Shown: positions 35,132-47,563, counted from the stretch's first letter. The stretch is DNA of 64,000 nucleotides from Planctomycetota bacterium (GCA_019456195.1 VRUK01000006.1:1-64000), one strand, 5' to 3'. The notes: generated by a model from the sequence alone, not told the origin. Numbers and translations are program-made.

Positions 35132-35738
35132 TGTCTTCCTCCGAATAAATATAGCTTAATTTTTCTCATACATACTGTTTAGAGGCATTATAGAATTTGA
35201 TAGAAATAAAACAAGTGGCAGCCCATATTTGCTAAATCAGAGTTGTTATTGTAAACCTCCTGCTAAAAAATACCTCTCTAAAAATCTAATTCTTGAGCTT
35301 TCTACAGGAGATTGCCAATATTTGTACAAATACTGCATACTACTTACCCATTTTAACAGCACAGAAGTGAAAATTTGTAAAGCTGTTAATTGTAAAGGTT
35401 TGTGGACTTTTACATCTTCTTCGCTTTGCCAAATATTAACCGATGGCAAAATAAACATAGTCATGCAACCGGATATTTCCATGTTTTGAGAGTTTTGACC
35501 TGTTTTGCAAAAGTTTTTCACTTGGCAACTTGCCGATTGTGTACTAAAATCTGTTACTTTCGTGTAAATGTTCGGCTTTAAAAAATGCGAGCTTCGAACG
35601 CGAACGTAACTCACCGGAACAGGGTTATTAATTGGTGCATACAATCCCTGGTCTGAAAATATAATTTGTAGTTTTGATATTGTCACTATGATAGATAGCA
35701 GTGTGGATGAGCAAAAAAAAGAGGAAGGAGGCTCGAAA
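35132..35738. other. Long AT-rich intergenic region before the coiled-coil gene
   Basis: About 600 bases separate two divergently oriented genes. Short open frames exist on both strands (86 and 171 codons) but they overlap each other, lack ribosome-binding sites and look like chance frames. The right end has AGGAAGGAGG, a very strong Shine-Dalgarno before the ATG at 35739. No riboswitch or repeat was recognised. Confidence 0.45.
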
Positions 35739-38705
35739 ATGACAGAAAAAATGGTTGGCACCGAAGCAAAAGAAAAATTCGTACCAACATGTCACGTATG
35801 CGGAGAAAAACATTGGCCTCACCATATGTTAATTCCGTGCTTTAATAAGAATAAAGCAAAGGCAAAAGCAAAAGCTGACAGAAAAGAAAAATCAGAAAAG
35901 AAACGAAGGGAAAAAGCCCAGGCCAAAGCAAAAGCCAAAGCTCAGGCCGAAGTAAATGCTGAGTTCGAAGCCCAGACAAGAGCCGAAAGAGAAGCCTTGG
36001 AGGACGAATTAGATGAGGTGAATGCAAAGTTAAAAGCAGCAACCGAAGGCAGGGACAAAGCACAGGAACAGGCCAGGGCGGATAAAGAAGCCAAAGCCAA
36101 AGCTCAGGAACAGGCTAAAGCATACATGGATGCTGCATCGAAGGCAGAGGAACAAGCAGCCAGTGATGATAGGGCCGCGAGTAAAGCCCAACTGCAAGTC
36201 GATTCGCTCAGTAAGACATTGAAAGAAGCTGAGCAGAAACTTCAGGGACACAATCAGGAAATAGCAAAAGTCGTAGAGCAGAGAAAGGCCGAATCTAAAT
36301 CAAGGGCCGAGACAGAGGGGCAGTTAAAAGCTGAAATCCGTGCAAGACAAATTGCCCAGGAAAAAGCAGAAGCTGAAGCACAGGAAAGGGCAAAAGCACA
36401 GGCCAAAGCCGAAAATCTGGAAAAGGCCAAAAATCAGGCTGAAGAAGAATCTCAAAGCAGAGTTAAAGCCCAGCAGCAGCTTAAAGTCGATATGAAAGAA
36501 ACCGAAAGAATCTGCGCCCAATTGCAGGCTAAGATTGAAGCTGAAGAAAATGCCAGGGCTCAGGTTGCAGAGAATACCAGGACTGAAAAACAAGCCCGAG
36601 CTGAAGCCGAGGAAAAAGCCGATTTTTATGCCGAAAAAATTCATAAGATAGAAAACAAACTTCAAGCCCAGATGCAGGCTATACTCGAAGCGCAGGAAAA
36701 GCTAAAAGCCCAGACACAGGCAAAGCAAAAAGCCGAAGAACTTGCCAAAGCGGAATCTCAAAAAAGAGCTGATATTGAAGCAGAAATGAAATCTTTAGCT
36801 AGTGGCAGAGCCAACAGAATAGCTAAAGCCCAGGAAAAGGCTGCGGCCAAAGCAAAGGCAAAAGCCGAAAAAGACGGTTATCTAAAAACTGCCGCACAAG
36901 CCGAGCAGCAGAGAGAGGCACAAGCAAAAGCAAGGGCCCAGGCAGTTGAAAAGCTGGAGGCCGAAATCCAGGCAAGGCACAGAATTCAGGAAAAGCTCGC
37001 AGCCGAAACCCAGGAAAGGGCCAGAGCACAAACCAGAGCTGATGCACTCGAAAAAGCCAAAAATGAGGCTCAGGCTCAGGCCAGAGAGGAATCACAGGCC
37101 AGGGCCCAGTCTCAGCAGCAGGCAAAAGCAGAGCTTGAAGAAAAGGCAAGGATTTGCGGTGAACTGCAGGTCAGGATTGAAACGGAAATCAAAGCAAGGA
37201 TTGAGGCACAAGATAAAGTCGAAGAAGAAAAACAAGCCCGTGCTGAAATCGAGGTCCAGGTGGACTCTTATGCCCAGACAATAACTCAGATACAAAATGA
37301 TCTTCAGGCCGAATCTCAGGCAAGGACCCAGATACAGGAAAAACTGGAAGATGAAATTCAGGCAAGACTAAGGGCACAGGACAAGGCGGAAGTCGAAGCA
37401 CAGGAAAGGGCCAGGGCCCAGGCAACTGCCCAGGCTAACGAAAAGGCTAAAGTCCAGGCCGAAGCCCAGCTACAAGCCGAAGTACAAGCCAAAGATAAAG
37501 CTGTACAGGAAGCTAAATCTGAACTTCAAGAAAAGGCAAGCCTCTGTGGCCGCCTTCAGGCCAAAACTGAGGCCGAAGAACAGGCAAGACTCGAAGCGGA
37601 AACTACTGCGATAGTGGAAAGACAAGCCCGCTCTGATGCCGAGGAAAAAACCAGAACTAATGCCGAGCAAAGAGCGGAAACCCAGAGGAAGCTTCAGGCG
37701 GAAATTCAGACAAGAGTTGAAAAGGAAAGAAAACTTGAATTGGAGGCTCAGGCAAGGGCCGAACTCGAGGAAAGGTTGGAAGTCGAGATTCAGGAAAGAC
37801 GAAAAGCCGAAGAAAAAGCCGCCGTCGAAACGCAGGAACGAATAAAAGCCCAGACAACATCCCAGGTCATGGAAAAAGCCAAAGCTGAAGCGGACCAAAG
37901 AGCCGCTTCTGAAGCTCAGGCAAGAGACAACGCCGAACAGAAAGCCAGAACTGAAATGGAAGAAAAGGCGAAGATTTGCGGCCAGTTACAGGCGATGGCT
38001 GATGCTAAGGAAAAGGCAAGGCTTGAGTCTGACGCCAAAGCCAGATCGGAAAGTCAGACCAGAGCTGAGGCTGAAGAAAAGGCCAGATCGTATGCCCAGA
38101 CAATAGAGCAGACAGAAAAAAATCTGGAGGCTGAAACTCAGGCAAGAGCCGAAGCGGAAAGAAGATTTGAGCTGGAGGCTCACGCCAGGGCCGAGCTCGA
38201 TGTGAAATTGCAAGCTGAGATTGAAGCAAGATGCAGAGCTGAAGCCGAAACCGAGGCCCAAGTCCAGAAAAAGACAGCTTTGGAAGCTCAGTTGAAAGAA
38301 ATCACCACCGGCAGGGCTGATAAAATAGCCAGAGCCGAAGAAAAGGCCGCGTCTAAGGAAAAGGCAAGAGCCGAAAGAAGAGGATATATCAAGGCCCTGG
38401 AAAAGGCCAAAGAACAAAGAAAGACCGAAACGGCGGCAAGAGCAGAGGCCGAGCAGAGGTTGAAAGCTGAATTGAAATCCAGGCGAAAAGCCGAATCCAG
38501 ACAAAAAGGATCTATCTTTGGAAACCACCGGGACAAAGAGCCTGATTTAGCTCCTCAAACAGCTCCGATAGAAATTCTATCTGTATCGGAAAATGATGAA
38601 AGCTGTGAAGGTTGCGGTAAAAGAAACTCTCCACCGGAGCATTTGGTTAAAGTGGATTCGGGCGACCTGCTTTGTCCGGATTGCATAAATGCATTAAAAG
38701 AATAA
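35739..38705 (+). CDS. Giant repeat-built coiled-coil protein with putative zinc sites at both ends
   Basis: From the ATG at 35739 (AGGAAGGAGG upstream) this is a 988-residue protein; an in-frame ATG at 35688 lacks that site. The N-terminus has CHVCGEKHWPHHMLIPC, a Cys/His cluster. The C-terminus has CEGCGKRNSPPEH and, after 16 further residues, CPDC, a zinc-ribbon pattern. Between them lie about 870 residues made almost only of Ala, Glu, Lys, Gln and Arg in an uninterrupted helical pattern with a 14-residue (two-heptad) period. No signal peptide or membrane segment is seen, so it is probably cytoplasmic and rod-like, on the order of 100 nm if fully extended. It lies 657 bases upstream of the TpsB gene on the same strand. 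The function is unknown; a scaffold or cytoskeletal role is a guess. Confidence 0.85.
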   Translation: MTEKMVGTEAKEKFVPTCHVCGEKHWPHHMLIPCFNKNKAKAKAKADRKEKSEKKRREKAQAKAKAKAQAEVNAEFEAQTRAEREALEDELDEVNAKLKAATEGRDKAQEQARADKEAKAKAQEQAKAYMDAASKAEEQAASDDRAASKAQLQVDSLSKTLKEAEQKLQGHNQEIAKVVEQRKAESKSRAETEGQLKAEIRARQIAQEKAEAEAQERAKAQAKAENLEKAKNQAEEESQSRVKAQQQLKVDMKETERICAQLQAKIEAEENARAQVAENTRTEKQARAEAEEKADFYAEKIHKIENKLQAQMQAILEAQEKLKAQTQAKQKAEELAKAESQKRADIEAEMKSLASGRANRIAKAQEKAAAKAKAKAEKDGYLKTAAQAEQQREAQAKARAQAVEKLEAEIQARHRIQEKLAAETQERARAQTRADALEKAKNEAQAQAREESQARAQSQQQAKAELEEKARICGELQVRIETEIKARIEAQDKVEEEKQARAEIEVQVDSYAQTITQIQNDLQAESQARTQIQEKLEDEIQARLRAQDKAEVEAQERARAQATAQANEKAKVQAEAQLQAEVQAKDKAVQEAKSELQEKASLCGRLQAKTEAEEQARLEAETTAIVERQARSDAEEKTRTNAEQRAETQRKLQAEIQTRVEKERKLELEAQARAELEERLEVEIQERRKAEEKAAVETQERIKAQTTSQVMEKAKAEADQRAASEAQARDNAEQKARTEMEEKAKICGQLQAMADAKEKARLESDAKARSESQTRAEAEEKARSYAQTIEQTEKNLEAETQARAEAERRFELEAHARAELDVKLQAEIEARCRAEAETEAQVQKKTALEAQLKEITTGRADKIARAEEKAASKEKARAERRGYIKALEKAKEQRKTETAARAEAEQRLKAELKSRRKAESRQKGSIFGNHRDKEPDLAPQTAPIEILSVSENDESCEGCGKRNSPPEHLVKVDSGDLLCPDCINALKE
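36320..38150 (+). repeat. Four coding super-repeats of about 125 residues within the coiled-coil gene
   Basis: Four divergent copies start near 36323, 36950, 37342 and 37774. Each runs through the same landmarks: L-x-x-E-I-Q/R-A/E-R, then Q/E-E-R-A-K-A-Q, then E-K-A-K, then an ICG-x-LQ landmark (ERICAQLQ, ARICGELQ, ASLCGRLQ, AKICGQLQ at about 36510, 37150, 37540 and 37973), then Q-A-R-A-E-A-E and Y-A-x-x-I. A second block, GRANRIAKAQEKAAAK near 36800 and GRADKIARAEEKAASK near 38310, occurs twice. The copies point to internal duplication. Confidence 0.75.
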
Positions 38706-39362
38706 AGCCGCATATACTTTCCTGAGGACTCTGTCACTCAAATCCAGCCCGTACAAGGGCCAATGGTAGCTGGTTCCTTTCCACGCATAAAAGTGCTCAT
38801 CTGCCTTACCATGTATTTACACCGCTCTCCACCGATACGCAAAAACATCCATATTTTTTCTTATAGGCACACAATGATAATATAGCTTAAGAAAAAACAC
38901 TCTTTCATTAGACGTTGATGAGTTGTTGATATAGGATTATTACAGCATTTTATTTCCTGAAAAGGCCCATATATATGTGCTGTTGTTGAAACTATAATAT
39001 AGAACAATCACATAATCCTCATTATTGATAATTATGTAATTGTATGGATAAAAAAAACGATTATTATAAGACGTTGCAGCAGAAACCAGATTATTAGTAC
39101 TGAAAACCACAAAAAAAACATAAATAAAACGGTTTTTTGTTGTTATTATCGTTGATTATTCATATAATGAGCATTCTATTAGTGGCTTTGATGGAAGGGA
39201 TTTCACAAAACACAATATCAATACGTTCTTTGATATTTTTTGGCAATTATATGCTATGTGTGGTACTATTGTACTTTTTCAGAGCATACTTTATTTGTTT
39301 CGTTCCACCCTTTCCTGTGGGTATGGATAGTACCTAAAATTGTTAATTTAAGGAGATTCACT
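38706..39362. other. Long AT-rich intergenic region upstream of the TPS operon
   Basis: About 650 bases, very AT-rich in the right half, between the coiled-coil gene and tpsB on the same strand. Several A and T tracts and the word GACGTTG at about 38911 and 39070 are seen, but no credible ORF, riboswitch or terminator hairpin. The promoter of the tpsB-tpsA operon should be here. AAGGAGA lies 6 bases before the tpsB ATG. Confidence 0.45.
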
Positions 39363-41246
39363 ATGAGTAGCACAAAAACAATAATGTGCTTTGTTCTTGT
39401 ATTTCTTTTGGGTTTAGTTTTTTGCTTTCCGGCCGATGCCTCACAGCGAAAAACCGAATACGATCCAAAGATGGAGCAAATGCGGGAGGATGCACAAAGA
39501 GCTAAGCGACAAGCTCACGAAAAAGCTAAAGCAAAGTTGGATGAGGATATCTCGGAAATTGACTTATCACAAGACACAACAAAAAAAATCACCGTAAAGG
39601 AAATTCGTATCAGCGGCAACACACTTTTAACAACCGATGAATTGTTAGATGACATGCCTCTGATTTACAACGCATCCCTCGATACATTAAAGAAGGCCGA
39701 CAGCCGTGACCTCTATGATTTCAGGGTTGTTCATGACATCATTTTAGACCCCGGCCAGGCGAGGCAGGTTTCAACAAGGACAATCAGGGCTTTCACGCAG
39801 TATCTCGTTTCTGTTTATCGCAAAAATAATTATTCCGGTATATATGTTTATGTACCCTCAGAGGCAATGATAGATGGCGAAAAACTAATAGATGACATTC
39901 TGCCGGTCGAAGTCCTCGAAGCATTGGTTTCTCAAGTCAGAGTAACACAATATGATATCGAACAAAATGCAGTTGAAAAAGGTTACCTTTCAAAAGATGC
40001 CGTTCTCGATTGGTCGCCAATAAAAGAAGGTCAGGTCGGAAATCAGAAAAAGCTCGATGATTTCGTCAACCTCTTAAACCTGAATCCCGACAGATACGTC
40101 TCCGCCGTTGTAACACAGGGAGATGAGCCTGAAACACTCACAGTCGCTTATGACATTTATGAAACTGACCCATGGCATGGCTTTATCCAGGTTGACAACT
40201 CCGGCACAAGGGACAGACAATGGACGCCGAGAATTGGCGTCATCAACACGAACGTCCTGGGTTTTGATGATAAATTTATGGCCGTTTATCAGGCCCCGCC
40301 GGAATCGGGTATTGAAGATAATTATTCGCTCTACGGCACTTATGACTTCCCCGTCATGGGCCCGAAACTGCGACTTAATGTATATGGCGGATACAGCCAG
40401 TATGATATTAACCCCGAGGGCGGTAATATTAACTTTATTGGTAATGGTTCGTTCATCGGCTCCATATTACGATACAACGCACTTCAGATGGATGGTTGGT
40501 TCTTCGATATCCTCGGTTCGATGAGCTACGAACGCAGTAGAATTACGCCATCCTTATTCCCGCAGTTTTTGGGAAGCAGTATAAGAATGGGTATATGGGG
40601 TATAGGTCTTGACGTTCATCGCTCGACCGACATGACAAATTCATCTGTCACATTTAACCGGCACGATAATTTTGACGGCTCAGACAGCGGCGATTTTAAT
40701 ACGGCACGAACCGGTGCGGATAAAGATTTTACTATCTACACCACAACCGCCGCTCACAGCCATTTTCTTGATACTAATAAAGTACAGCGCCTCGGCGCCT
40801 CTTTACGCTGGATAACTTCGGTCGAAAGACTTATCCCCGCTAAAATGACCACCTTTGGCGGAATGTACTCGGTAAGGGGCTACGACGAATACGAAATCGT
40901 TGCTGACGGCGGTATCCTCGGATCACTTCAATATGAGTTTGACCTTATCAAATACGACCAGGTCATGAATCCCTCCGAAGACCAGCCCGAACAAGCAGCG
41001 GTTAATAAATATGAACTCAAAAAGCTGGCCCCACTGGTATTTCTTGATGTCGGCCGCACAACAGTACAACATCCCGTTGCAGGAGAAGAGAGGCATCAAA
41101 CTCTCTTTTCCGCCGGTGCAGGTGCGATTTTTGAAATTGGTGATAATTTTAGTGGAGGAGTCTATTACGGCTTCCCCCTAAAGAAAACTCCTGACACAAG
41201 GAAAGGCAAAGGCAGAATCAATGTCGGCTTCTTGTTAAGATGGTAA
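39363..41246 (+). CDS. TpsB-type outer-membrane transporter (ShlB/FhaC family)
   Basis: From the ATG at 39363 (AAGGAGATTCACT upstream) the protein has 627 residues. A longer frame from 39240 has no ribosome-binding site. A signal peptide (FVLVFLLGLVFCFPADA) is followed by a charged helical stretch (MEQMREDAQRAKRQAHEKAK), a POTRA domain (ITVKEIRISGNTLLTTDELL), a second POTRA-like region, and a C-terminal 16-strand-type beta-barrel with the family motif in FGGMYSVRGYDEYEIV and a final aromatic residue (VGFLLRW). It moves the TpsA exoprotein across the outer membrane. The tpsA gene starts 101 bases downstream. Confidence 0.9.
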   Translation: MSSTKTIMCFVLVFLLGLVFCFPADASQRKTEYDPKMEQMREDAQRAKRQAHEKAKAKLDEDISEIDLSQDTTKKITVKEIRISGNTLLTTDELLDDMPLIYNASLDTLKKADSRDLYDFRVVHDIILDPGQARQVSTRTIRAFTQYLVSVYRKNNYSGIYVYVPSEAMIDGEKLIDDILPVEVLEALVSQVRVTQYDIEQNAVEKGYLSKDAVLDWSPIKEGQVGNQKKLDDFVNLLNLNPDRYVSAVVTQGDEPETLTVAYDIYETDPWHGFIQVDNSGTRDRQWTPRIGVINTNVLGFDDKFMAVYQAPPESGIEDNYSLYGTYDFPVMGPKLRLNVYGGYSQYDINPEGGNINFIGNGSFIGSILRYNALQMDGWFFDILGSMSYERSRITPSLFPQFLGSSIRMGIWGIGLDVHRSTDMTNSSVTFNRHDNFDGSDSGDFNTARTGADKDFTIYTTTAAHSHFLDTNKVQRLGASLRWITSVERLIPAKMTTFGGMYSVRGYDEYEIVADGGILGSLQYEFDLIKYDQVMNPSEDQPEQAAVNKYELKKLAPLVFLDVGRTTVQHPVAGEERHQTLFSAGAGAIFEIGDNFSGGVYYGFPLKKTPDTRKGKGRINVGFLLRW

Positions 41247-41347: not shown

Positions 41348-44300
41348 ATGGAAAAGGTAAGAAAAGTTGTTAAAAAGTATTATCTAAGACAAATTATGAC
41401 ATATTGGCTCGCATGCTGGATGTTCTTCGGCCTGCCCGCACAAGTCGCTATGGCCGTATCGCCAACGCCTACTTGGACTGATCCTGGTACTGCCACAATC
41501 ACACAAGGAGCTGATTGGACAAATGTATTAGTGGATCAAGCACAAACTATCATTAAGTGGGATAATTTTAACACCTTTAATGGTGAACTGATGGAATTTG
41601 AACAAGGTGCCCTACTCAATTCTGCAGTCCTGAACAGGATTTCAGGGCCTGGAACAACGTTTAACGGTGACCTCACTGGTGCAGGTATGCGGATATTTAT
41701 GGTTAATCCTGCCGGTATCATCTTCGGCTCCACTGCAACTGTAAATGTTGCCCAGTTGGTCGCTTCTGGTCTCGGAATGACTAACCAGGCTTTCCTTGAT
41801 GCAACTGATTTGACCCAAAATCTCAAGATGGATTTCACCGACGGCGGTGCTGGTGATGTGATCAACAATGGTACAATCACTGCTTCCGATAGTGTCTATC
41901 TTGTTGGTATAAACGTTACAAACAACGGTTCCATTGTTTCTACGAACGGAATGGTGGTAATGGCTGCCGGCGATTCGGTTAAACTCGGTCAGCCCGGCAG
42001 TTCCGTCATTGTCGATATGGCCACTAGCGACTATATTGGTGATACCGATAACGATATTAATAGCGGCGGCAGCAGTGGTTCGATTACAGCGAAGAATGTA
42101 GTCCTCGCTGCCGGTGATATCTGGTCGGGTGCCATGAACGTCGAGACTTTAAGGGCAGAAGCAGTCGGTGATGTCGAAATCGACGGCAGTATATTAGCAA
42201 ATGCGAATGCAGCTTCTGACGCCATTGCGGAAATTGATATTATCGCGGGTAGTGATGTTTATATCAACGATAATGTAACCGCACAAAGTTATTCAGACAC
42301 AGGTGTTTCGACAGACGATGCTATCTCAACTATAAACATTGATGCAGGTGGAGATGCAAATATCAATAACACGGTTTATGCATATTCTGAGTCTCGAAAT
42401 GCGTCAGGTAATGCACAGTCAACCGTTAAAATTGACGGTGATGATACTGTGAATATTGGCGGTTGGGTTGAGGCTTTTGCCAAGGCCAAATATAGTTCAT
42501 TGGATGCCAGTGCTACTGTTGATATTGACGCCGGTTTAAATGTGAATGTTGATAATATAGTCAAGGCATACGCAAGAACCCAGTATGATGCAGGTAATTC
42601 TACTGCTCTTGTTGATATAGCAGGTAATCATGTGGATGTTGAGAGTATCGTTGAATCCTGGGCGACGGTAAAAGATGGTTCAGGCAATGCAATGGCCGAT
42701 GTTCAGATTTACTCAGTTGGGGATGTTGATGTTGGGGGAGGCAATGCCCTCGTTAAGAGTTGGGCCAGAACCAGCGATAATGCAGGTAATGCCACCGCAA
42801 AGACTCTTATTGATGCCGGTGGTAGTGTGTATATAGAAGGTGGCTCCGTTGAAGCCTGGGCTGTAACTGAAGATGGGTGGCCCGAAACTACCAGTCCCGA
42901 TCTGACTGCAACTGTCGATATTGACGCTGTTGAAGAGGTTGCTGTAGGCGACGATGGAGATCCCGGATTCGTACTGGCTGTGGCCAGGACCGGCGCTGGT
43001 GCTACCGGCGAAATCGGAAATATAACTGCAAATGTCGATATCGATGCCGGTTTAGTTAATATACTCGACGGCACTGTTGCTGCTGTGGCCAAAACCGGTT
43101 TCCAGTCCTACGTTAATGCAGGTGATATAACCGCGACGGTTGACATTGACGCTATCGGTTATGATGATGAAGTCGATGTTGACGGTGATATAACTGTGGA
43201 TTCTTCCGATTATTTCGATCAAGGGTTGGGTCTTACTTTGAGTCCCGTAGAAGCCCATGCTGAGGCCGGAAGCGGAATAGCCGGTACCGCAGGTAATATT
43301 ACTGCAACGGTCAACATTAAGCCCGCTAATTATCTCAATGTATATAGCGGAATTATGGCTGAAGCTTTGGTTGGCTATGAAAATCCTGCTCAAGCCGGTA
43401 ATCTAAGCGCAACTGTTGATATTCTTTCCGCTGATAGCGTTTACGTCAATCGTGGCTACATAGAGGCTTTCGCTGGTCCGATTGGTAAGTCCCCCGCTAC
43501 TTTTGGCGATGCGACTGCAAAAGTTAAGATTGTTGCCGACGATAGTATTGAAATAGAAGATGCAGAAGTAAGGGCTGTGGCTTATGAGGGTGCTACCAGC
43601 ACCGCTACTGTTGAGATTACCGCTACCCAGGGCAATGTTGATGTGAAAAGCACTTCTGAATGGACGAAAATTCATGCTCTGGCTGATAATGGTACTACAA
43701 ATAATGCTGCTATTGAAATTGACGCTGGCGGTTATGTTAAGGTGCAGGCCAATGGTATTGCTTGGGATGATAATGTTTATATAGACGCTGAGGCTCGCGA
43801 TGGGGACGATAACAATTCCGATATTACGATTATCGCCGGTGGTAATGTTGAGGTATCAGCATCCGGCAACGGCCCCGATGCCCATATATTGTCTCGAGCA
43901 CATAGAGGTGGTGACAATACTGCCAATCTAATGATTGACGCCGGTGGCGATCTCACGGCAATAGCCAGCAATGGCGCCAACGTTGAAATAGAAGCTCAGA
44001 CTGACGCCGGCTCAACTAACTCCGCTACTACGACTATTTTAACCGATGGTGGAGTTCTGGTACAATCCGACTCGAACAACAATAGTAATGCTAGGATAAG
44101 AGCTGAAGCCGAGAGCGCCGATGTTTCCAATACGGCCAATATTAATATTACGGCTATTGACGATGTTGTTGTAACAAGTAACGACAATACTGCTGAAATA
44201 TATGCTTTTGCCGGATCTGCCGAAACCGACAATGTCGTTAATAATGCTGGTATTAATATAACGGCTCGAAGTGTTCAGGTAAAAACACAAAGTGGTACTG

Positions 44301-47300
44301 CTGAAATAACAGCATATACTAATGATGGCGCTACCAATAACTCCAGCGTTACGATTAACGCCATAGGTAAGGAAATAATCGAAGACGATGTAGTTGTTGG
44401 CATAGAAGGCGGAAATGTAAAAGTAAAAAGCGATCCTGGCGAAGGTGACCCAGGCTATGCTGGAATAATGGCTCTTGCCGAGGGTGGGGATGAACCCGCC
44501 GGGAATACAGCCAATGTTAAAATCGATGCCGCCGGTGATGTTGAGGTAATTGCAAGAGGTGGCGGCGAAGCTGAAATTCTGGCTGAGGCTGTAAATGGGC
44601 TTTATATTGGTGACGAAGGGGATGATACTTTCTCTCAGGTGCTTAACACTGCTGGTGTTGATATCGACGCCGGTGGCCGTGTTTTAGTAAAAGCCCAGGA
44701 CGATTGGTATGACTATGACTATAGTGAGTGGATACCCAGTTCTGCTGGAATAGAAGCCCAAGCTCATAATTTCTTTGAGGCTGAGGATGAAGGTACAATA
44801 AATGTTTCTCTCAATGACCTTACGAACACGGCAACTGTTGATATTGACGCCGCTAAAGTTGAGGTACTTTCCTATGAAGGCGCTGAAGCTGTAATATTAG
44901 CAGAGGCCGCCAATATTCTGGACTGGAATTTTGAGGACTATGGACCTCCTCCTTTCTCTTTAGCTTTAACAGGCGACAACATAAATAACACCGCCAATGT
45001 TAATATTAAAACAGTGGCTCCTGAACCGGTAATTGGTGATGGCGACGGAGATGGTGACGGTGATGTTAAAGTAAAATCCGATGGCGGCCAATATGCCGGA
45101 ATAAGTGCTGATGCTTATAACGGGATTATGGATATTGTAGAAGCCGAATCTGCCGATGACATCCCGGCTAATATGAATAACAATGCATCTGTGATGATTG
45201 ACGCCGCTGGTGAAGTTAAGGTGGCAGGCTATAGCGGCGAGGCTGCTGTAACAGCTTTAACTCAGTATGCCAGAAACAACACCTCCACTGTTGATATTAC
45301 CACTAATGGCGATCTTAAAGTGGAAGGTAACGACGGTGATGCTTTCATAGAAGCTATTGCTGAAGATGGTGTTGATAACACCGCCACTGTAGTTATCGAT
45401 GCCGTTGGTGGCGATGTTAAGGTAATCGACATAGGTGAAGGCGGCGTTGACTCAGCGGGAATATTGGCCACTGCACAGTATGCCGGATTAAGTAATTCAG
45501 CCGATATTCAGATAGATGCCACTGCCACTACCACCACAGTTGAGGACGAAGGTCAAGTTTACGAAGAAGTAGAAGGTGGTGATGTAAAGGTCGTTGCCAA
45601 AGACGGCGGCCATGCTGAAATAATAGCTTACGCTGCTAATGCTGAGGCTGAAGAGGGGGCGGATCCTGCCTCCAACACTGCCAATGTTACGATTAACGCC
45701 ACTGGCGCCGATGTAACCGAGTCTGTTATAGTTGATGAAATAGTTACATATGATGAGCATGACGTACCAACGATAGAATATGTATATGAAGACGTAACTT
45801 ATACCGAAGGCGGAAATGTAACGGTCAAAGCCGAAAACGGCGGCGAAGCTGTAATACTTGCCCAGGCTGCCAGCAGCGATGAAAACACCTCCGATGTCCT
45901 GATTTGTGCCGAGGGTGAGGTTGAAGTACTTGGTGGCTTTATGCAGCCGGGCCCATATAATTGGAACCTGACCACTGCTTCGATAAAGTCTCTCGCCCAG
46001 TTCGGCAACATTAACGATGCCTATACCGGGATTAGTGCCGATGAAGGCGTTAGCGTAATAGCCGGTCACGGCAGCGGCGAAGCTTCGATTAGTTCGGATG
46101 CCTCATGGGGCGGGACCAATACCGCCCTTACTTCAATTTGCACCGATGGCGATGTTCTCGTAATAGACCTCTGTCGCAGCGGCGGCCCGGCTTCGATAAC
46201 AGCCGACGCTCTATATGGTGTTGATAATACCTCCACTGTCGGCGTTCATGCCGAAGGTGATGTTCTGGTAGCCGCAGGCCTCGATGATATGGGCGGTACC
46301 GCTCTGATAAAAGCTAAAGCGGATGCGAGCATTGGCGACGGTGATGGCGATGGTGATGGAGACGGTGATTCGGTATCTACGGCAACCGCCAATACTACGG
46401 TTATCTCCCAGAAGGGTGGTGTTGGTGTAATAGACAGACAAGACGGAAGAAGCCCCACCACAGCTTTAATTGAAGCTGAGGCTGTTAATGCTGACGAGAA
46501 CAATGCCTATGTTGGTGTTGTTGCAGGAGCCGACCTTTCACCTTCAGATTTAGTCGAACCTGTAACCAATGGCCATATTGAGCTTCCACCCATAGATCAG
46601 TGGTTGGAAAACATCCGACCAGGAAATGTGAATGTAGAAAGCTACGGATCCAGCGGTCATGCTTACATATCAGCCAAAGCTTACAATGGCGGTAAGAACA
46701 CTGCTGAAACAGTAGTTGCTGCCCCCGGAGAAGTGTTGGTACAGGAACAGGATGATGGCGGCATAGCCTATATAAGTTCGCTTGCTGACACAACTGATGC
46801 GGAAAATAGCGCAACTACCAGGGTTTACGCCAGTGAAGTTGCTGTATCTGAATTCGCTTACATAGAGGCATTGGGAGCAGTAGAAGAAATATCTGAAACC
46901 GATTACATCTTAACCGAAGATGGTGAAGTAGTTGACGAAGGCGATGTAGATGCCACATTAATAATTCAGGGTTATAGTGAACGCACCGATCTCCCGGCTT
47001 TACCGGAGTGCCCGATATGTGAAGATTCGATAATCGAAACAATACCGTTTGGACCTCCGGCACCATTAGGCGTAGCTCCGCTTCCGGGATTGCAGGAGAT
47101 ACTGTTCGGTCAGGGCGGTTGTCCTGCATTAATGGAATGGCTGGCTGCTGAAGTTGGTGTTGCCGTGGATGTACAGGTCTTTGTAGCGAACGCCTTTGTC
47201 TCTTCTACCGATTGCCAGCCCTGTGAGACCGCTGCAAAGCTCAAGCGTGCCGCTACGGTTTTGGCCGACGAAGATGGTTCCGCAATGACTGCCATGCTAC

Positions 47301-47563
47301 AGGTATTTAATCCTAATGTGCCGTTCACACCGGAAATGGCCAACTCGATTGCTACTGATCCCGGAGCACAGTACGCTGCGGCAAGAGGCTACATTGATGC
47401 TTTCGTTCAGTATATCGCTATCCTGAACACTGAAATGGGCTCTCCGGTAGCTGATTCTGTCGCTTATGTCATGGAAAAATACGGCTCAGACGTATCTGGA
47501 AATGATGACATGGCTGGTTTCCTTGCGACACGTATCCAAAGCGGCGAAACTTACGCTCAGTAA
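41348..47563 (+). CDS. TpsA-type filamentous hemagglutinin-like exoprotein with cysteine-bearing C-terminal domain
   Basis: The 2071-residue protein starts with an extended signal region (MTYWLACWMFFGLPAQVAMA). It continues with a TPS secretion domain (about 35-190) containing IIKWDNFNTFNG and the conserved MVNPAGIIFGSTATVNVAQL. Residues about 265-1835 are some 30 beta-helix repeats of the form T-A-x-V-x-I-D-A-x-G-x-V-x-V. Two Gly-Asp runs (10 and 12 residues) sit inside loops. The last 230 residues form a distinct domain with CPICED, GGCPALMEWLAAEVGV and CQPCETAAKLKRAATVLADE. TpsB next door should export it as a surface or secreted fibre. The exact role (adhesion, matrix, predation) is unknown. 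AAAGGG precedes the ATG, and a terminator follows. Confidence 0.9.
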   Translation: MEKVRKVVKKYYLRQIMTYWLACWMFFGLPAQVAMAVSPTPTWTDPGTATITQGADWTNVLVDQAQTIIKWDNFNTFNGELMEFEQGALLNSAVLNRISGPGTTFNGDLTGAGMRIFMVNPAGIIFGSTATVNVAQLVASGLGMTNQAFLDATDLTQNLKMDFTDGGAGDVINNGTITASDSVYLVGINVTNNGSIVSTNGMVVMAAGDSVKLGQPGSSVIVDMATSDYIGDTDNDINSGGSSGSITAKNVVLAAGDIWSGAMNVETLRAEAVGDVEIDGSILANANAASDAIAEIDIIAGSDVYINDNVTAQSYSDTGVSTDDAISTINIDAGGDANINNTVYAYSESRNASGNAQSTVKIDGDDTVNIGGWVEAFAKAKYSSLDASATVDIDAGLNVNVDNIVKAYARTQYDAGNSTALVDIAGNHVDVESIVESWATVKDGSGNAMADVQIYSVGDVDVGGGNALVKSWARTSDNAGNATAKTLIDAGGSVYIEGGSVEAWAVTEDGWPETTSPDLTATVDIDAVEEVAVGDDGDPGFVLAVARTGAGATGEIGNITANVDIDAGLVNILDGTVAAVAKTGFQSYVNAGDITATVDIDAIGYDDEVDVDGDITVDSSDYFDQGLGLTLSPVEAHAEAGSGIAGTAGNITATVNIKPANYLNVYSGIMAEALVGYENPAQAGNLSATVDILSADSVYVNRGYIEAFAGPIGKSPATFGDATAKVKIVADDSIEIEDAEVRAVAYEGATSTATVEITATQGNVDVKSTSEWTKIHALADNGTTNNAAIEIDAGGYVKVQANGIAWDDNVYIDAEARDGDDNNSDITIIAGGNVEVSASGNGPDAHILSRAHRGGDNTANLMIDAGGDLTAIASNGANVEIEAQTDAGSTNSATTTILTDGGVLVQSDSNNNSNARIRAEAESADVSNTANINITAIDDVVVTSNDNTAEIYAFAGSAETDNVVNNAGINITARSVQVKTQSGTAEITAYTNDGATNNSSVTINAIGKEIIEDDVVVGIEGGNVKVKSDPGEGDPGYAGIMALAEGGDEPAGNTANVKIDAAGDVEVIARGGGEAEILAEAVNGLYIGDEGDDTFSQVLNTAGVDIDAGGRVLVKAQDDWYDYDYSEWIPSSAGIEAQAHNFFEAEDEGTINVSLNDLTNTATVDIDAAKVEVLSYEGAEAVILAEAANILDWNFEDYGPPPFSLALTGDNINNTANVNIKTVAPEPVIGDGDGDGDGDVKVKSDGGQYAGISADAYNGIMDIVEAESADDIPANMNNNASVMIDAAGEVKVAGYSGEAAVTALTQYARNNTSTVDITTNGDLKVEGNDGDAFIEAIAEDGVDNTATVVIDAVGGDVKVIDIGEGGVDSAGILATAQYAGLSNSADIQIDATATTTTVEDEGQVYEEVEGGDVKVVAKDGGHAEIIAYAANAEAEEGADPASNTANVTINATGADVTESVIVDEIVTYDEHDVPTIEYVYEDVTYTEGGNVTVKAENGGEAVILAQAASSDENTSDVLICAEGEVEVLGGFMQPGPYNWNLTTASIKSLAQFGNINDAYTGISADEGVSVIAGHGSGEASISSDASWGGTNTALTSICTDGDVLVIDLCRSGGPASITADALYGVDNTSTVGVHAEGDVLVAAGLDDMGGTALIKAKADASIGDGDGDGDGDGDSVSTATANTTVISQKGGVGVIDRQDGRSPTTALIEAEAVNADENNAYVGVVAGADLSPSDLVEPVTNGHIELPPIDQWLENIRPGNVNVESYGSSGHAYISAKAYNGGKNTAETVVAAPGEVLVQEQDDGGIAYISSLADTTDAENSATTRVYASEVAVSEFAYIEALGAVEEISETDYILTEDGEVVDEGDVDATLIIQGYSERTDLPALPECPICEDSIIETIPFGPPAPLGVAPLPGLQEILFGQGGCPALMEWLAAEVGVAVDVQVFVANAFVSSTDCQPCETAAKLKRAATVLADEDGSAMTAMLQVFNPNVPFTPEMANSIATDPGAQYAAARGYIDAFVQYIAILNTEMGSPVADSVAYVMEKYGSDVSGNDDMAGFLATRIQSGETYAQ
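42150..46870 (+). repeat. About 30 degenerate beta-helix repeats in the TpsA exoprotein
   Basis: Units of roughly 40-60 residues recur with a core such as TATVDIDA, TANVKIDAAGDVEV, TAGVDIDAGGRVLV or TSTVDITTNGDLKV followed by a GEAEI-x-A-x-A strand. Spacing is irregular and units are diverged at DNA level, so this is a protein-level repeat, not a DNA satellite. Gly-Asp runs lie at 45035-45064 and 46334-46369. Confidence 0.8.

Follow-up and report, generated by a model that had tools for sequence, protein, structure and literature searches.

A 64,000-nucleotide window of a Planctomycetota bacterium genome (the whole stretch of DNA analysed here; GCA_019456195.1 VRUK01000006.1:1-64000) carries a gene for a 988-residue protein, in which a rod of ~890 residues, alternating in a single unbroken phase between small or hydrophobic and charged or polar residues, lies between two zinc-site-like caps. 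The overall architecture of this capped rod is well supported: the reading frame, the conserved caps, the alternation, the repeats, the basic tract and purifying selection are all demonstrated by the sequences. That the rod is helical, that the caps bind metal, that the protein is cytoplasmic and that each head has a binding function is inferred. The best explanation, which we favour tentatively, is a lineage-specific cytoplasmic tether with two heads. Its features, in positions of the window, are as follows.

35726-35731, plus strand: Shine-Dalgarno-like AGGAGG, 7 nt upstream of the ATG (read from the sequence; kept in the G001 relative)
35739-38705, plus strand: gene for the capped rod protein, 988 aa (stop-free translation of frame +1; full-length orthologues in same-genus genomes; rod dN/dS)
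35790-35840, plus strand: N-cap, knuckle-like C18-x2-C21-x3-H25-x8-C34 (CHVCGEKHWPHHMLIPC), after a conserved FVPT (invariant ligands)
35841-35960, plus strand: conserved 40-residue basic tract adjoining the N-cap, net charge +11 (charge count; AF2 helix)
35859-38528, plus strand: rod, residues 41-930, small/hydrophobic residues alternating with charged/polar ones, phase-locked (lag identity, parity counts, period-2 power)
36510-36527, plus strand: super-repeat landmark ICAQLQ, residue 258 (motif scan)
36804-37013, plus strand: second repeat block, copy 1, from residue 356 (29/70 identical to copy 2)
37152-37169, plus strand: super-repeat landmark ICGELQ, residue 472 (motif scan)
37542-37559, plus strand: super-repeat landmark LCGRLQ, residue 602 (motif scan)
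37974-37991, plus strand: super-repeat landmark ICGQLQ, residue 746 (motif scan)
38310-38519, plus strand: second repeat block, copy 2, from residue 858 (29/70 identical to copy 1)
38520-38603, plus strand: flexible linker between the rod and the C-cap (AF2 pLDDT <50 over most of the linker)
38604-38702, plus strand: C-cap, treble-clef-like C956-x2-C959-x19-C979-x2-C982 with a DSG motif and a terminal helix (alignment, Foldseek)

A first-pass annotation, made from the sequence alone, had placed a 988-residue protein of no known family at 35739-38705, and both statements hold. Frame +1 of the plus strand is open throughout and encodes exactly 988 residues, and no curated family match was found in Pfam, NCBIfam, PHROGs or PADLOC; neither did we find a catalytic domain in the Pfam search or a description of the family in the open-licence literature. 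Full-length orthologues with 90% and 87% identity occur in two genomes of the same genus. An alternative start (ATG at 35688) would add an open N-terminal extension of 17 residues, but the closest relative lacks that ATG. An origin in a phage, a plasmid or an anti-phage defence system was rejected, as phage, plasmid and viral collections contained no relatives and neither PHROGs nor PADLOC gave a match.

The gene stands isolated. The genes upstream, among them one for a GH38-type glycosidase, lie on the opposite strand, and a two-partner secretion pair begins >500 nt downstream, consisting of a ShlB/FhaC-like transporter (39240-41246, plus strand) and an FHA-type exoprotein of 2071 aa that contains DG-rich stretches (41348-47563, plus strand). 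The capped rod was considered as a secreted adhesin of this pair and the idea was dropped, as (i) no signal peptide was recognised by eye, and (ii) the pair adjoins the capped-rod gene only in a same-genus genome. Linkage to sigma-factor genes, seen at seven loci, was likewise set aside as evidence because ECF sigma genes are plentiful in planctomycetes. The search for neighbours conserved across genera found none that would name a partner.

The most unusual property of the rod, missed in the first-pass annotation, is its alternation. Ala occupies one parity 182 times and the other 13 times over the 890 residues; Leu, Thr, Ile, Ser, Val and Gly share the parity of Ala, and Glu, Lys, Gln, Arg and Asp prefer the opposite one. 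At all even lags to 60, identity within the 988-residue protein exceeds the chance level, and at all odd lags to 59 it falls short of it. The 14-residue period described in the first-pass annotation is borne out by the highest value of all, at lag 14 (z +15), and lag 7, the lag of coiled coils, ranks with the strongest depletions (z -7.0). The 14-residue period is superposed on a stricter period of 2, which is slip-free in the window protein: not one of the 30-residue windows of the rod has switched phase. The period-2 power of the rod is 372 (random, ~1), against 3.5 in E. coli TolA and 0-0.5 in two MukB coils. Domain II of TolA resembles the rod in being Ala-rich, charged and alpha-helical; it differs in the absence of the period-2 signal and in the membrane anchor of TolA. 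The rods of close relatives alternate as in the window protein, and the distant members in G110, G047 and G096 alternate locally, with slips of phase.

On this alternation, longer repeats are laid. Self-comparison of the protein supports the proposal that it was built by internal duplication, the copies having since diverged: the best 60-aa diagonals score 175, 168, 161 and 159, and 60 parity-preserving shuffles never exceeded 128. The diagonal at offset 502 (score 161) corresponds to the second block, which had been reported to occur twice and does so from residues 356 and 858. Four super-repeats of about 125 residues had also been proposed; the four landmarks, of the form [IL]C[AG]xLQ, are present, but they are spaced by 214, 130 and 144 residues. 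The spacings of the listed DNA repeats in the gene are all multiples of 6 nt. The landmark Cys was examined as a candidate metal site and rejected: it is replaced by Tyr in the L083 relative, and the landmark Cys residues, not being conserved, are therefore probably not metal ligands.

Residues were permuted within each parity in order to isolate signals that the alternation itself does not force. With parity held fixed in this way, the hydrophobic residues of the rod prefer lag 4 (z 5.6 in the window protein, up to 8.4 in relatives) and avoid lag 2; those in G035, G010 and G031 prefer lags 4, 14 and 18. Pairs of Glu followed by Lys/Arg at i to i+4 are enriched (z 6.0 in the window protein, up to 11.6 in relatives), as are the reverse i+4 pairs (z 3.8), and the i+4 ion pairs amount to 0.163 per residue, in line with the dense E-K/R pairing at i+3/i+4 expected of single alpha-helix (SAH) domains. 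The lag-4 spacing of hydrophobics and the i to i+4 ion pairs point to alpha-helical geometry, and a beta-rod is disfavoured by the same statistics. AF2 predicts an unbroken helix after the N-cap with pLDDT >90, which is weak evidence against a sheet because AF2 would miss a switch from helix to sheet. Judging from these features of its sequence, the rod is probably elongated and helical.

As to the kind of helix, SAH domains such as the CAF-1 KER region are likewise E/K/R-rich, contain many i to i+4 ion pairs and are used as spacers (PMC10335832), and they are defined by the absence of a hydrophobic seam (PMC5347031). The rod does have a seam, seen both in the lag-4 preference of its hydrophobics (z 5.6) and in the heptad a/d contrast (z 5.0); it also differs from SAH domains in carrying small residues, mostly Ala, at every second position, in being about ten-fold longer and in its zinc-site-like caps. 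The a/d contrast is weak in the window protein, albeit above the null, is strong in three relatives (z 10-13) and is absent from a CBS-type member (z -0.1), which would pass as an SAH domain in this respect. Thus, the rod appears to lie between an SAH domain and a coiled coil. The coiled-coil rod of the first-pass annotation accordingly survives as an elongated, probably helical one, with phase-locked alternation and a weak hydrophobic seam in place of a plain heptad.

In comparisons with the two same-genus orthologues, dN/dS is 0.24-0.27 for the rod and 0.05-0.09 for the N-cap. Within the rod, the charged parity is more constrained (0.13-0.14) than the Ala parity (0.38-0.44). The rod is under purifying selection, beyond what repeat slippage would leave. 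All nine rod indels relative to the more distant G002 orthologue comprise even numbers of residues (2, 8, 10, 14, 14, 14, 32, 38 and 130), which is supportive but not independent because the aligner was partly guided by the pattern.

The Cys clusters reported at the two termini are real, with C18, C21 and C34 joined by H25 at one end and C956, C959, C979 and C982 at the other. The first-pass annotation had staked its reading on the conservation of these cysteines, which proved invariant in the alignments of relatives. In the N-cap, whose motif in relatives reads FVPTCxxCGEKHWPxH...PC, the three Cys and the His are invariant in alignments of 10 and 15 sequences. In each of the 19 reading frames examined, the 40-residue tract behind it carries a net charge between +4 and +12, and the mean charge of the rod is about 0 to -4, CBS-type members excepted. 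In one CBS-type relative the basic tract is not special because the whole rod is basic. A short C-x2-C...H...C site beside a basic tract is also found in CCHC zinc knuckles, for instance in the retroviral nucleocapsid, where the knuckle adjoins such a tract. The spacing differs, being C-x2-C-x3-H-x8-C in the N-cap and C-x2-C-x4-H-x4-C in the zf-CCHC family, and Pfam gave no match. A profile search of solved structures gave no match to the N-cap, and a Foldseek search with its model gave nothing useful. In two CBS-type proteins (L032 and L038, genomes G008 and G028), the knuckle is doubled in tandem, with shorter spacing.

The C-cap is modelled by AF2 as a C-x2-C pair, two short strands, a second C-x2-C pair and a closing helix; the pTM of the capped-rod models is low (0.34-0.47). 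Its four Cys, together with a Ser and a Gly, do not vary across an alignment of 18 sequences. As modelled, the C-cap resembles treble-clef fingers (GATA, LIM, RING) and Pfam DUF7685 in combining two C-x2-C pairs with a hairpin and a closing helix. Foldseek hits to the C-cap model were mostly treble-clef-type zinc fingers (AreA/GATA, LIM, RING, FYVE) at non-significant scores (best E 0.22), and a profile search of solved structures gave no convincing match. DUF7685 was rejected as an assignment, as the score of its partial match over residues 956-985, 15.1 bits, lies below the gathering cut-off (27). With fold matches that are non-significant for the C-cap and of no use for the N-cap, zinc binding is putative at both ends.

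Of the 161 genomes of one planctomycete order, 33 carry the N-cap, and the searches found it nowhere else: among 298 genomes sampled across the class, all 15 matches fell inside this order, and the sole other match in a phylum-wide sample aligned to the rod portion of the profile and not to the knuckle. Among the matches listed, the named relatives are Planctomycetota, mainly Phycisphaerae/Phycisphaerales with one labelled Sedimentisphaerales. The C-cap is present in 55 of the 161 genomes and, phylum-wide, in 3 of 392. Most of the relatives are known from metagenome assemblies, and contig ends truncate several of the reading frames. Every N-cap frame with a visible, unmasked 3' end terminates either in the C-cap (16 distinct frames), which answers the call in the first-pass annotation for homologues with both caps, or in a CBS-type end (four frames, with the CBS domains of L032 and L100 confirmed by Pfam). 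N-cap reading frames span 464-2860 aa, and the cap ligands are invariant though the rods of relatives differ widely in length and sequence.

Similar rods also occur with other heads. In the genome of the window (G000), L003:752-1999 encodes an alternating rod with a C-terminal CBS pair and no N-cap; L002:1087-2454 encodes a further rod-bearing protein with an unassigned N-terminal domain, a PilZ domain suggested by eye being rejected for want of support in Pfam or NCBIfam; and L004:1507-3030 encodes, alongside a rod, a transmembrane-like segment and, C-terminally, a domain resembling, by eye, the end of a ParA fusion in G012. The latter (L031:5966-13720, minus strand) is a 2585-aa frame comprising a ParA-type ATPase, an alternating rod of ~1130 aa, a transmembrane segment and eight tandem-95/cadherin-like repeats, apparently a fusion reaching from the cytoplasm to the surface. 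G022 and G023 encode related ParA fusions without the alternating rod. The C-cap is also carried by short proteins (L101, L108, L111, L115, L122 and L105) with a WWWxVxLPGE N-terminal domain and a coil. Short C-cap proteins are encoded directly 3' of a pilQ-type secretin in G036, G103, G107 and G108 (one genus) and in G029 (another), and they overlap or adjoin a ParA gene in G065, G105 and G106. The pilus operons of L143-L148, L151 and L152 include a ParA ATPase gene, with pilO-like genes on one side of it and pilP/pilQ-like genes on the other (names assigned by eye), and the genome of the window has two tandem ParA copies in a type IV pilus operon.

As a two-headed tether, the protein would work as follows. 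The knuckle-like CCHC-type finger of the N-cap and the basic helix behind it would most likely grip DNA, RNA or another polyanion; the basic tract could alternatively target a membrane or an acidic protein. The CAF-1 KER region, in which one basic single alpha-helix both binds DNA and serves as a spacer (PMC10335832), may be regarded by analogy as a precedent for a basic-helix head plus spacer. The alternating-Ala rod of ~890 residues would be an alpha-helical spacer of up to ~130 nm when fully extended (890 x 0.15 nm), and the flexible linker would carry the treble-clef-like putative zinc finger, which may dock a protein partner. The rod would lengthen or shorten by in-frame segmental duplication, mostly in even residue numbers. 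Rod length being free and the heads fixed, a tether or mesh-former is favoured over a precise ruler. In favour of the tether are the invariant cap ligands, the consistent pairing of the N-cap with a C-cap or CBS-type end, the basic tract behind the knuckle, the helix-type spacing and AF2 helix, the zinc fingers among the C-cap fold matches and the rod dN/dS; against it are the absence of a neighbour conserved across genera, the lack of convincing profile matches for either cap, the non-significant C-cap fold matches, the low pTM and the uniformly basic rod of one CBS-type relative.

One alternative is a cytoskeletal coiled-coil-rich protein: side-by-side association of its rods would give filaments or a mesh, with the zinc caps as assembly or anchoring contacts. 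FilP, Scy and crescentin are long helical rods without catalytic domains, and the capped rod likewise combines a long, coiled-coil-compatible repeat rod of variable length with the lack of a catalytic domain in the Pfam search; several relatives show the hydrophobic seam at 4/14/18 spacing. We nevertheless consider this alternative unlikely, though the least so of those discussed here: the window protein has a weak seam and only 13% large hydrophobics among its rod residues (26-27% in MukB coils), no match to an intermediate-filament family was found, and the patchy occurrence (33/161 genomes) speaks against a core cytoskeleton. The capped rod further departs from FilP, Scy and crescentin in its lack of a family match, in a phase lock at period 2 rather than a plain heptad and in its two zinc-site-like end caps. 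Alternatively, the protein may be a scaffold of a polar or envelope machine, with the C-cap docked on a type IV pilus/ParA positioning apparatus and the rod reaching towards the nucleoid or other cargo. The short C-cap proteins behind pilQ-type secretins in five genomes, those beside ParA genes in three, the presence of that ParA subfamily inside pilus operons and the fusion of ParA to a 1130-aa alternating rod in one genome are all consistent with it. Still, the long N-cap rods, including that of the window, are encoded outside pilus operons, the sole nearby secretin (L033) is separated by a gene on the opposite strand, and the shared alternating rod could reflect convergence of low-complexity sequence; we regard such a scaffold as rather improbable.

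Two further alternatives concern the rod itself. EAK16, a 16-residue peptide from yeast zuotin (AEAEAKAKAEAEAKAK) in which Ala strictly alternates with Glu/Lys, was modelled as a helix and yet forms a very stable beta-sheet (PMC2387071; PMC7889856). The rod shows the same binary pattern (182 against 13; power 372), perfectly alternating in 47 of its 875 16-mers and over 35 residues in the longest run, and it might thus be a natural giant EAK16, assembling into amphipathic beta-sheet fibres or, in some conditions, changing over from helix to sheet and back. This is very unlikely, as the hydrophobic and ion-pair spacing with parity held fixed has helix geometry, beta-branched residues are scarce and AF2 returns a helix (weak evidence); the sheet-forming peptide is 16 residues long (PMC2387071), and the rod has ~890 with helix-type spacing statistics. 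The rod could also be a junk expansion, i.e. a low-complexity ORF born of hexanucleotide repeats and devoid of specific function. The 6-nt multiples among the DNA-repeat spacings fit this origin, and similar GCN-VAR hexamer runs were detected in 40 of the 246 genomes searched in the phylum, albeit with an unspecific pattern, the reversed control being matched in several genomes. The dN/dS values of rod and N-cap relative to the two closest relatives oppose an artefact of hexamer repeats and largely refute junk expansion. The invariant cap ligands, the non-random spacing of hydrophobics and charges and the good ribosome-binding site also speak against it, and we attach hardly any credence to it.

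Alternation of polar with nonpolar residues is, by the textbook rule, what makes a beta-sheet. EAK16 illustrates that a peptide of Ala, Glu and Lys expected to be helical can still follow this rule (PMC2387071). It is attractive to speculate, as a long shot, that phase-locked alternating rods form a distinct and so far unnamed class of natural structural polypeptides, which take their register from a two-residue code and not from heptads alone, which one bacterial order has expanded in even-residue steps and reused as interchangeable spacers to separate heads for signalling or anchoring (zinc caps, CBS pairs, ParA ATPase), and which may convert between single helix, coiled coil and EAK16-like sheet. 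A natural family in which the alternation extends over hundreds to more than 1000 residues together with helix-type spacing makes the question of helix or sheet testable. The caps and the swap of the C-terminal head between C-cap and CBS provide a handle on the roles of long rods in cells of the Phycisphaerae, whose internal organisation has, to our knowledge, been little studied.
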